From a bacterium (GTDB lineage: Bacteria; Fibrobacterota; Fibrobacteria; UBA11236), in NCBI GenBank assembly GCA_900299345.1, contig OMJM01000077.1, positions 1-40,155 on the forward strand: 40,155 bases of DNA, given 5' to 3'. The number at the start of each line of letters is the position of its first letter. Position 1 is the stretch's first letter. This document shows positions 36,049 to 39,659 of the stretch, one piece after another. Both the position numbers and the translations under genes were made by a program. The notes beneath the pieces were generated by a model. The model was given only the letters and a program-made list of their open reading frames with translations. It was not told where the DNA came from and did no database searches.

Positions 36049-37205
36049 AATTGCTGTGGCTCATCATCTGGAAGGAATTCCAGCACCTGCGGCGCGATCC
36101 CGGATCGATCCGGCTATTGATCGGTCCGCCTCTCATCCAGCTTTTCATTCTGGGCTATGCGATGAACACGGAGGTCAAGAACACCCCCTATGCCGTGCTG
36201 GATCGCTGCGCATGTCCCGCATCCGCTTCGTTGCTTGCCTCCACCGCCTCCTCTCCGTTGTTCAAGTTCAAGGGTTTCGCGCGATCCGAAACCGAACTGC
36301 GCGAGTGGATGGATCAGGGAAGGATTCGTGCGGCCTTGCTCATTCCTCCGGATTTCTCCCGCCGCGTGGAGGAACGCCTGCAACTCACTCCCACAGGATT
36401 TCCCGATGGTGAGGGAGCGCCCATCGGCATCTGGGTGGATGGCCAGGATGCCTCGTCTTCCGGCGTGGCGCGCGGGTACCTCACTTCCATCCTCAACCAA
36501 TGGTCGCAGGAACGGCTGACGCAAAAGCTGCGCGCGCAGGGCCGCAACCTGCGCGACCTCATGCCGCTCCACGTGGATACGCGCATCGCCTTCAACCCGT
36601 TGTTGGAATCAAGCTGGTACATGGTGCCGGGCATTGCGGTCATCCTCATCACCATGATCACCTGCATGATGACTGCATTTTCCATCGTCCGTGAGAAGGA
36701 AAGCGGGACTTTGGAACAGCTTTTGGTGACTCCCATAAAGCCCATCCATATTGTGCTGGGCAAGGCTCTTCCCTTTTTCATCATCGGCATTTTTCAGCTC
36801 TCGTTTGCATTGACCGTGGCGCGGCTGTGGTTCGGCATTCCCTTTCTCGGCAGCTATTGGGAATTGGGACTCTTCTGCGCCGCCTACATGCTTTCATCGC
36901 TGGGCATCGGCATCCTGATTTCCACCGTGGCCAAAACCCTGCAGCAAGCGTTGTTCATCACCTGGTTCTTCCTGCTTTTCTTCATGCTATTGTCCGGGTT
37001 TTTCCTGCCGGTGGAAAACATGCCGGGGTGGGTGCAGATCATCACCCGGGCCAATCCGGTGCGTTACTTCATGTTCGTGCTGCGCAGCATCCTGCTCAAG
37101 GGATCAGGATTCATGGATCTCTGGCGCGAGGGTGTTTCAATGCTGGCCATCGGCGCGGTGGTGTTCACCGGCGCGGTGGCCTTGTTTCACAGGAAGAGCG
37201 GGTGA
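36045..37205 (+). CDS. ABC-2 type permease 2 (YbhR-like)
   Basis: 386 aa, starting at GTG 36045 in a GTGA overlap with permease 1; the frame is open upstream, but the protein should begin MKLLWLIIWKEFQHLRRDPG, the usual first line of this family. TM1 at about 23-43 (LLIGPPLIQLFILGYAMN), a periplasmic domain of about 150 residues, five C-terminal helices and the coupling segment VREKESGTLEQLLVTPIKP. The motif SGFFLPVENMPGWVQ between the last helices is typical. Together with permease 1 it completes the exporter. It is the last gene of the operon; no clear terminator follows before the transposase gene. Confidence 0.94.
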   Translation: MKLLWLIIWKEFQHLRRDPGSIRLLIGPPLIQLFILGYAMNTEVKNTPYAVLDRCACPASASLLASTASSPLFKFKGFARSETELREWMDQGRIRAALLIPPDFSRRVEERLQLTPTGFPDGEGAPIGIWVDGQDASSSGVARGYLTSILNQWSQERLTQKLRAQGRNLRDLMPLHVDTRIAFNPLLESSWYMVPGIAVILITMITCMMTAFSIVREKESGTLEQLLVTPIKPIHIVLGKALPFFIIGIFQLSFALTVARLWFGIPFLGSYWELGLFCAAYMLSSLGIGILISTVAKTLQQALFITWFFLLFFMLLSGFFLPVENMPGWVQIITRANPVRYFMFVLRSILLKGSGFMDLWREGVSMLAIGAVVFTGAVALFHRKSG

Positions 37206-37250
37206 CAACCGTCACGCTGGTGGCCATGTCCGGTTTTCATATTTGCGGGC

Positions 37251-37802
37251 ATGTCATATGACCCGAACAAGCATCATCGTCAAACCACACGGCTAAGAGG
37301 ATACGATTATGCTTCTCCCGGAACCTATTTCGTCACCTTGAATGCCCAGAACAGGTTGCATCTATTCGGCGAGATCGTCAATGGGAGCGTGCAGCTCAAC
37401 ATGTATGGCAAGCTCGCCTTTGATTGCTGGGAACAAATTCCAACCCATTTCCCTTATGTTCATCTGGATGAATTCATCATCATGCCAAATCATGTGCATG
37501 GAATTCTTCAAATCTTGAAAGACCCCATCGAGTCTGTGGGGACACGGCATGCCGTGTCCCGACGAGACCCAAAAGAATTATTTGGAAATCCCATCTCCGG
37601 AGCATTGTCCACTATTATCCGTTCTTTCAAATCCGAGACAACCCGAAAGATCAACCTCTTGCGCGGCAGCCCGGGCGAAATCGTGTGGCAGAGGCGTTTT
37701 CATGACCACATCATCCGCAACGACACGGCTTTGAATAACATTCGCGAATACATTTTGAAGAATCCCGCCAAATGGCAATGGGATCGGGAAAATTCAGAAT
37801 AG
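37251..37802 (+). CDS. REP-associated tyrosine transposase (RAYT, Y1_Tnp family)
   Basis: 183 aa. The opening RLRGYDYASPGTYFVTLNAQ, the HUH motif His81-Val-His83 in IMPNHVHGIL and the catalytic Tyr167 candidate in NIREYILKNPAKW are all present, so it may be active. This single-strand nuclease family processes REP palindromes and is related to IS200/IS605 transposases, but usually stays as a single domesticated copy. Residues 97-103 (GTRHAVS) are encoded by a 22-nt palindrome that looks like a REP inserted in frame. The 3' end overlaps the convergent ubiD-like gene by 9 bp. There is no clear ribosome site. Confidence 0.9.
   Translation: MSYDPNKHHRQTTRLRGYDYASPGTYFVTLNAQNRLHLFGEIVNGSVQLNMYGKLAFDCWEQIPTHFPYVHLDEFIIMPNHVHGILQILKDPIESVGTRHAVSRRDPKELFGNPISGALSTIIRSFKSETTRKINLLRGSPGEIVWQRRFHDHIIRNDTALNNIREYILKNPAKWQWDRENSE
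37539..37560. repeat. 22-nt perfect palindrome inside the RAYT gene
   Basis: GGGACACGGCA followed directly by its reverse complement TGCCGTGTCCC. It is read in frame as Gly-Thr-Arg-His-Ala-Val-Ser in a variable loop after the HUH motif. A palindrome of this length within coding sequence is very unlikely by chance and has the size of a REP hairpin arm. I find no second copy in this window by eye. Confidence 0.75.
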
Positions 37803-39659
37803 TCCGTGCAACGGCCGACCTGGAGCGGCCAGTGCTTCGACCCGCTTCACGACATCCGGATCGGATTCCAGCGGTGGTGCGTGATGCGGCTTGATGCGCG
37901 CATCGATGACCAGCGGCCCGCGACAGCCCCAATGCTTCCGCTCGGTGAAGGCAAAGATTCCATGCACATCCCGTGCCGGATCGGAACGGGTGAACGTGAC
38001 CCACAGGAAATTATCCAGCGACTTGGCAACAAATCCCGGTTCATCCGCCATCACCCATAATGGGAAACCGTTCAACAATTCTTCGGCCTGACCCGATTCC
38101 CGCAACCGTCTGGAAAATCCTTCCAGCTCCTCGTCCAATACTTCGGGCTCCGCGCCCTTGCCCCCGGATGAGGAACCGCTGAAGGTGAGCACACCGGGCA
38201 ACACGAGTTTCGGTGCGGACCAATTATCGGGCCACAGTTTCAACAGAGCCTGAGGAATCTCTTCGGCGAGCGTGCGGCGCGGCGAACCGGAAACCGCAAG
38301 CAACAGCTTGGAGCCCTCATTGAGTCCGGCTCCACTGTAATCCAACGTGTCCATGGTGGTGCGGGTGATGAAGTGCAAATCCCTTTCCCACGAAACCCGC
38401 CGCAGCACGTGACGGAAGAACGCAGACACGTCGCGGATGTCCGGCATCGAATCGCTTTCGCGCGCCGTCAGCCAGAGATATTTGGCCAGCGAAAGCTGCC
38501 CATAACCGAGCAAGGCATGACCGATGGTATGCAACTCGCGCGGCTTGTGCTCCTCATAAGGAGCATAGCGATCGCTGGCAATGGCCAGCAATAATGGATG
38601 AACGCCCGCGGCTTCCACGGCATGTACCGCATGCAATCCGGGAATTTCCTTGGGCAAGGCATCACCCGCGATTTCATGAATCAGTTCCGCCAGCGTCGCA
38701 TCCTCCTGAGGAGGGCGGCCCACCACGGTGAACGGCCAGATGGCGCCGCTCCGGTGATATACCTTCTTCACGGTCAACACTGGAAAGGGGTGCGCCAGAC
38801 TGTAGTACCCAAGGTGATCACCGAACGGCCCTTCGGGCAAGGTGCGCAACGGGTCGATGGTACCAGTGATGCAAAAATCTGCATCGGCGGAAAGCAGATG
38901 ACCATTCTGTCTCGTATAACGAAAGCCGCGGCCCCCGAGAATTCCGGCGAACAGCACTTCGGCAATTCCTTCCGGCAGCGGCATCACCGCCGCCAGCATG
39001 TGCGCGGGAGATCCCCCGACAAAGATGGAAACCTTGAGCCTCTCGCCTCGCCGGATGGCTGCATGGTGATGCACGCCGATTCCGCGATGGATCTGATAAT
39101 GCAGACCGGCTTCACGATCCGCCTGGAATTCTCCGCCCGCCAATTGAATCCGGTACATCCCCAAATTGGAATTCCAGACTCCAGGCATGTCAGGATGTTC
39201 GGTGTAAACCAATGGCAGGGTGATGAACGGCCCGCCATCCTTCGGCCAACTGGTGATTTGTGGCAACGCCGACAATCGAGTTTCATGCGCCGCCACGGCG
39301 GGACTGGACACCGATCGTGGCAAAGCATGAAGCGCACCAAATCCGGAACGCAGGGAATCGAACGGATGCCGTAACGCTTCCACCGGATCAGAACGAAGTT
39401 TCAAAAGTTTTCGCGCGCGCTCAACCCCCTCGCCGAAAAGCATCCAGGCCCGTTCACGGGTTCCGAAAAGATTGGAGACGCAGGGAAATTCCGTTCCCTT
39501 GACGCGTGTGAACAAAAGCGCGGGGCCTCCAGCAGCATAAACACGCCGCTGGATTTCCGCCATCTCCAGATGGGGATCGATTTCCTCCTTTACCCGGCGG
39601 AGCTGCCCTTTGCGCTCGAGATATTCGACGCTCTCACGCAAGTTTTTGAAAGCGCTCAT
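37794..39659 (-). CDS. UbiD-family decarboxylase, long form
   Basis: 621 aa against about 490 for E. coli UbiD. The prenylated-flavin and substrate site residues are present: NSNLGMYRIQ with Asn165 and Arg170, and the catalytic EGPFGDHLGYYS with Glu276 and Asp281. The long form resembles the menaquinone-associated decarboxylases of the futalosine-pathway group in FCB bacteria and actinobacteria, from memory; a role in aromatic acid or quinone decarboxylation follows from the family. The enzyme needs a UbiX partner, not in this window. It starts 9 bp after the ridA stop, with no strong ribosome site. Its stop overlaps the end of the RAYT gene on the other strand. Confidence 0.92.
   Translation of the reverse strand: MSAFKNLRESVEYLERKGQLRRVKEEIDPHLEMAEIQRRVYAAGGPALLFTRVKGTEFPCVSNLFGTRERAWMLFGEGVERARKLLKLRSDPVEALRHPFDSLRSGFGALHALPRSVSSPAVAAHETRLSALPQITSWPKDGGPFITLPLVYTEHPDMPGVWNSNLGMYRIQLAGGEFQADREAGLHYQIHRGIGVHHHAAIRRGERLKVSIFVGGSPAHMLAAVMPLPEGIAEVLFAGILGGRGFRYTRQNGHLLSADADFCITGTIDPLRTLPEGPFGDHLGYYSLAHPFPVLTVKKVYHRSGAIWPFTVVGRPPQEDATLAELIHEIAGDALPKEIPGLHAVHAVEAAGVHPLLLAIASDRYAPYEEHKPRELHTIGHALLGYGQLSLAKYLWLTARESDSMPDIRDVSAFFRHVLRRVSWERDLHFITRTTMDTLDYSGAGLNEGSKLLLAVSGSPRRTLAEEIPQALLKLWPDNWSAPKLVLPGVLTFSGSSSGGKGAEPEVLDEELEGFSRRLRESGQAEELLNGFPLWVMADEPGFVAKSLDNFLWVTFTRSDPARDVHGIFAFTERKHWGCRGPLVIDARIKPHHAPPLESDPDVVKRVEALAAPGRPLHGLF

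Follow-up and report, generated by a model that had tools for sequence, protein, structure and literature searches.

The host gene is a RAYT

The window, which here means the whole stretch of DNA that was analysed (40,155 nucleotides), contains a 183-codon open reading frame whose product has the motifs and fold of a REP-associated tyrosine enzyme of the RAYT (TnpAREP) family. The features of the locus, in order of position, are as follows.

37202..37243, + strand: upstream palindrome GTGACAACCGTCAC with an N23-ATATT box; centre 42 nt ahead of the start codon; found only at RAYTs in the source genome
37251..37802, + strand: RAYT (TnpAREP, subclass-2.4 type) gene, 183 aa, from profile match, alignment and fold
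37491..37499, + strand: HUH motif H81-V-H83, with histidines invariant among aligned relatives
37532..37568, no strand assigned: possible outer stem GTCT (37532-37535) / AGAC (37565-37568), from RNA folding
37536..37563, no strand assigned: double-foot REP of 28 nt with one foot mismatch, from its pairing, with feet as in PMC6006769
37539..37560, no strand assigned: perfect 22-nt palindrome, from the window search and shuffle test
37605..37664, + strand: helix 119-138 (G117 just ahead), counterpart of the REP-contact helix, with residues that co-vary with the internal stem
37749..37751, + strand: catalytic Tyr167 (YILKNP), invariant among aligned relatives

The initial annotation had called this gene a RAYT transposase, and that identity holds. 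The only matches of the reading frame, both below cut-off, were to Y1_Tnp (Pfam) and to REP_Tyr_transpos (NCBIfam NF047646), the latter at 64.8 bits against a cut-off of 80, in two stretches that lie on either side of the insert. REP_Tyr_transpos is also matched by all 40 aligned relatives, and the two HUH histidines, the WQ and Tyr167 are invariant in the alignment with 39 relatives. An AlphaFold model of the window protein (pLDDT 86.5) gave as its best match among solved folds 4ER8, a structure of the E. coli RAYT in complex with a REP hairpin (E 2.7e-07). The sole segment of the model with pLDDT below 50, residues 97-106, lies between strand 81-88 and helix 119-138 and holds the residues encoded by the palindrome.

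TnpAREP subclass 2.4, as defined by Quentin, Siguier, Chandler and Fichant in their 2018 text (PMC6006769), has the window gene's enzyme type, HuH-Y loop, in-frame insert and double-foot REP. Set against the subclass motifs (NH[IFV]H, WQ and YIxNNP), the window protein has NHVH and WQ, and its Tyr motif, YILKNP, is one residue off; the long HuH-Y distance of the subclass (median 88 aa) compares with 86 aa from H81 to Y167. The window gene differs in its 3' foot (CGAC) and in its surroundings, where a search that covered double-foot REPs found none flanking the gene. Since flanking REPs are given in the 2018 text for the large majority, not all, of subclass 2.4, we treated them as typical rather than obligatory.

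A second palindromic feature precedes the gene. The arrangement GTGAC-N4-GTCAC followed by N23-ATATT is found before both RAYT genes of the source genome, G000 (window 37202-37243; G000:C84:6708-6749), and upstream of all four RAYTs of a sister species, G002 (contigs C1, C7 and C10), with its centre about 42 nt from the start codon. Occurrences of the combined motif lie at RAYTs in 2 of 2 cases in G000 and 4 of 5 in G002. The arrangement resembles a CRP/FNR-type site belonging to a leaderless promoter. RAYTs of other phyla did not have it upstream, and since it was seen only in the window's genus it was rejected as a family-wide feature.

The palindrome is the core of a double-foot REP with one imperfect foot

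The perfect 22-nt palindrome GGGACACGGCATGCCGTGTCCC lies exactly at 37539-37560, in frame within the gene, as the initial annotation had stated. Its placement between the HUH histidines (H81, H83) and Tyr167 was likewise given correctly; it encodes G97-T-R-H-A-V-S103. No other perfect palindrome of at least 16 nt occurs in the 40-kb window, and a palindrome of 22 nt or longer appeared in only 3 of 20,000 mononucleotide shuffles of the window gene.

The full unit is larger than was noted at first. It spans 28 nt (37536-37563), forms 13 of 14 pairs, encodes V96-R104 and is laid out as GTGG GGACACGGCA / TGCCGTGTCC CGAC. Its single mismatch is in the foot (GTGG...CGAC versus GTAG...CTAC): under the double-foot definition (5' GT[AG]G, 3' C[TC]AC) the 5' GTGG fits and the 3' CGAC deviates, as a degenerate 3' foot. 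We read the 28 nt as a slightly degenerate 'double-foot' REP with the palindrome at its core. A Rickettsia-type palindromic element, with a CGTC foot and no RAYT association, was considered and rejected, as the unit has a GTGG/GTAG foot and sits in a RAYT. RNA folding also predicts an outer stem, GTCT/AGAC with a bulge, around the 28-nt unit, which is short and may be due to chance. A hairpin is predicted in the mRNA of the window gene (z -2.5) and of its paralogue L004 (z -5.6); Rfam gave no matches in 36900-38100.

Other REP copies in the genome

The source genome comprises 2.24 Mb in 91 contigs, and the genome-wide statements made here rest on pattern searches. The search for further copies that the initial annotation had proposed returned one other site with three or fewer mismatches to the palindrome, so that the refuting condition named there, the absence of any second copy, does not apply. 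This site, GTAGGGACACGGCATGCCGTGTCCCTAC, is a perfect copy, has both feet intact and lies between two convergent genes. That the window stem has only this one other genome copy weighs against reading it as the enzyme's own cognate REP, as do the degenerate 3' foot of the window copy and the failure to find a double-foot REP flanking the gene. The broader pattern GTAGGGN{10,22}CCCTAC had 24 matches in the genome and its reversed control 5. On C84, the other RAYT of this genome carries a different REP, GTAGGGGCGGATTTTAAATCCGCCCCTAC, in the same loop, with three more copies in the genome. In-frame REPs are also present in the linker of a fused glycyl-tRNA synthetase alpha-beta gene (glyQS) and in a family-9 glycosyltransferase (G000 L018 1501-1528 and L011 1501-1528, respectively).

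At 13 of 16 GTAG..CTAC elements of this genome, extragenic and other (L002, L006, L007, L009-L017 and L019), locus-specific inverted repeats of 6-10 bp extend the stem. This could be read in two ways: either an inverted copy of the flank is made on insertion, or REPs enter the centres of existing hairpins. Extended flanks were rejected as a general insertion signature; they are strong in G000 and absent from most copies elsewhere, and the signature is therefore not claimed for the family. A further element, GTAGGGGCGGGACAATCCCGCCCCTAC (G000:C63:12770-12796), had no matching RAYT that we could find in G000; an identical element lies within a RAYT of the sister species (L040, G002:C7).

The DNA, not the peptide, recurs across the family

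We assembled 247 distinct RAYT genes from 193 genomes, drawn from one GTDB genome scan (80 loci, many phyla) and from the window's own phylum, Bacteroidota (the phylum of Fluviicola), Cyanobacteria (the phylum of Hyella) and named genomes. In this sample, for which the search profile came mostly from insert-bearing genes, a palindrome with an arm of at least 11 was present in 141 of the 247 genes, compared with 3-5 after synonymous codon shuffling, and about 43% of the genes carried no intact copy. Taking the HUH-WQ interval as 0 to 1, 144 of 153 palindromes fall in this loop, from 0.1 to 0.6. Both feet were present in 109 of 136 loop elements.

Translation takes the foot in frame 0 in 89 genes and in frame 1 in 31; no gene uses frame 2, in which TAG would be read. 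The use of the two TAG-free frames and never of the third identifies the DNA, and not the peptide, as the conserved unit. In the window gene the stem yields VGTRHAVS, and nearly the same stem, in another frame, yields RGTACRAPT in Nitrosomonas halophila (L048) and a member of the Bacteroidota (L197), so that here too it is the DNA that is shared. These two genes also answer the objection, raised in the initial annotation, that all homologues might have the same residues with non-palindromic codons. Odd loop peptides such as GTRHAVS, GAGLKPAPT and VGATRRVAPT are thereby explained as read-through of a DNA element.

Filled and empty loops can be compared directly in L209 and L215, which have nearly the same loop and differ by a 60-nt in-frame insert with a REP. 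Decayed loop copies were seen in L222 and L313, and empty loops are common.

Several further arrangements were observed. L110 and L206 have tandem units of 21-24 nt between HUH and WQ, in which a 5' half-REP is repeated before one complete REP, and comparable peptide repeats occur in the HUH-WQ loop of L095 and L116. The centre of the palindrome is flipped (C/G; GCC/GGC) between the near-identical RAYT genes L252/L198 and L254/L206, suggestive of an inverted hairpin tip. L046 and L044, from the window genome's class, are RAYT-like reading frames with a REP-like peptide, AGQPRRAAPT, which stands before the HUH and FDFPTFG strand and not after the HUH.

The internal stem follows the enzyme

Where a locus has both an internal and a nearby REP, the two stems are the same in 30 of 42 cases, as against 4.7% when internal REPs are swapped between loci; within the family sample, 36 of 47 matching copies lie no more than 700 nt from the internal REP. 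For 21 pairs of same-genome RAYT paralogues with different stems, the pairing of stem and enzyme was predicted from the three nearest proteins of other genomes with the loop masked, giving 17 right, 1 wrong and 3 ties. Both RAYTs of the window genome were among those correctly paired.

When overall protein similarity was removed, 7 of the top 10 stem-predictive residues among 126 columns fell on one helix. The foremost, in window numbering, are S125, S128, G117, T121, E129 and R124, and the clustering persists when only pairs with a different frame or placement are used. Over 68 pairs, each gene being used once, helix identity was 0.78 for the same stem versus 0.49 for different stems (p=2e-5), and identity over the rest of the protein was 0.68 versus 0.59; the helix-face columns were chosen from data that also score them, and the whole-helix comparison is the fairer number. 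As the helix adjoins the loop, linked exchange could mimic such co-variation, and the shuffling of columns leaves some phylogeny in the test.

The positional counterpart of helix 119-138 in the E. coli enzyme is the DNA-binding helix alpha3 (PMC8266576). Given that the stems follow the protein and that the predictive residues lie on the counterpart of the REP-contact helix, the internal REP is most likely the enzyme's own substrate, and we predict that G117, T121, R124, S125, S128 and E129 set stem specificity. The original suggestion of a REP sitting in its own mobiliser with the frame kept agrees with everything found here, including the perfect extragenic copy, the sharing of DNA rather than peptide, and the co-variation of stem and enzyme.

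Discussion

In-frame REPs in this loop of RAYTs have been known since 2018, and the window gene is a new member of the group. The 2018 text describes it as a unique feature of subclass 2.4 that REPs, including the 'double foot' form (GT[AG]G, C[TC]AC), are inserted in tnpAREP, generally between HuH and Y and with the frame intact, and judges the insert region to be peripheral with little impact on activity, which is a passive reading; its main text does not appear to include the match between stem and helix (PMC6006769). The REPtrons of groups 2 and 3 (E. coli, S. maltophilia and Marinomonas; Corneloup et al. 2021, PMC8266576) similarly combine a RAYT with a cognate, co-evolving GTAG hairpin, but there the REPs flank the gene, and those tested were one-footed and recognised on one strand. 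Intragenic GTAG/CGTC REPs, including the Rickettsia palindromic elements (Di Nocera et al. 2013, PMC3733652), are palindromic repeats in frame within protein genes, as in the window; they differ in that their hosts are mostly unrelated to the repeat and the CGTC elements are without a known transposase. Our search, largely of open-access papers, found no later paper than 2018 on internal copies, and searching with raw REP strings returned unrelated papers only. What appears to be new here is that the internal REP would label the specificity of the enzyme, with a hairpin that matches the recognition helix across many bacterial phyla.

In our judgement the palindrome is probably a copy of the REP that is cognate to this RAYT, held in frame within the disordered loop that separates the HUH strand from the REP-contact helix of a subclass-2.4-type TnpAREP. 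RAYTs cut and rejoin single-stranded REPs (PMC8266576), and the enzyme could therefore insert a REP, or a copy of one, at the locus that encodes it. Single-strand cleavage with strand transfer, or hairpin-templated copying, would have put the REP into the enzyme's own gene, and the survivors would be those copies that open one of the two stop-free frames in a tolerant loop. Thereafter the loop copies would turn over through re-insertion, tandem half-copies and decay. The tandem 5' half-REPs of L110 and L206, together with the flipped centres of L252/L198 and L254/L206, point to hairpin-associated copying. A benefit from a substrate linked in cis, or from a hairpin carried by the gene or its mRNA, might account for the excess over other genes.

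Recurrent insertion with tolerance is our base case, and functional retention is possible. The version of this explanation that denies any function, in which REPs land widely, the loop is simply a harmless in-frame site and there is no selection to keep them, is one to which we would give even chances. It accords with the disorder of the loop (pLDDT below 50 at 97-106), with the decayed copies, tandem half-copies and empty loops, and with the tolerance by the same genome of in-frame REPs in the glyQS linker and the family-9 glycosyltransferase. However, REP elements occur at 0.76 per kb in RAYT genes and at 0.009 per kb in other long reading frames (7 in 816 kb, at least one of them in another RAYT), a difference of about 90-fold, and even intergenic DNA has only 0.47 per kb within 1 kb of a RAYT and 0.08 elsewhere. 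Moreover, among copies without extended flanks, those in the loop are perfect more often than those elsewhere (73 of 91 versus 68 of 111, p=0.004), which also speaks against a purely passive insert.

The high prevalence of loop copies, their excess over the DNA nearby and their more frequent perfection favour a functional self-target, whereby the RAYT would bind the hairpin of its gene or mRNA and so limit its own expression, or the internal REP would serve as a protected master copy for REP spread. The hairpin would form in the mRNA also, leaving room for autoregulation, and the predicted mRNA hairpin is strong, above all in paralogue L004. Against this stand the large share of sampled genes that have no intact copy and the loss of the copy in close relatives; in addition, RAYTs bind single-stranded DNA, and we know of no case of RNA binding by them. 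We regard a self-target as a rather doubtful proposition.

The idea that a conserved peptide, GTRHAVS, gives rise to the palindrome as a side effect has in its favour the recurrence of similar peptides in relatives, but we regard it as highly improbable and rejected it: synonymous shuffles abolish the palindrome in nearly all genes, one stem encodes different peptides in two frames, and a perfect copy is extragenic. A chance palindrome, for which nothing speaks beyond its a priori possibility, can be dismissed as more improbable still, given the shuffles of the window gene, the exact second copy in the genome and the recurrence across the RAYT family.

To our knowledge, few RAYT-REP pairs of enzyme and substrate have been tested so far. 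If the preferred reading is right, so that each gene contains the substrate of its enzyme, the target of any sequenced member could be read from the gene, and 136 genes with an internal stem are at hand here. The match between stem and helix would supply many testable enzyme-target pairs, bearing on how RAYTs choose and spread REPs, and orphan REPs may be assignable to lost enzymes through the REPs inside relatives' RAYTs. More tentatively, the internal REP may be a maintained functional part of the RAYT gene, serving either as an autoregulatory self-target or as a master copy that is protected. The family may then amount to a naturally occurring library of enzymes labelled with their own hairpins, in which the code by which HUH enzymes recognise single-stranded hairpins could be read.
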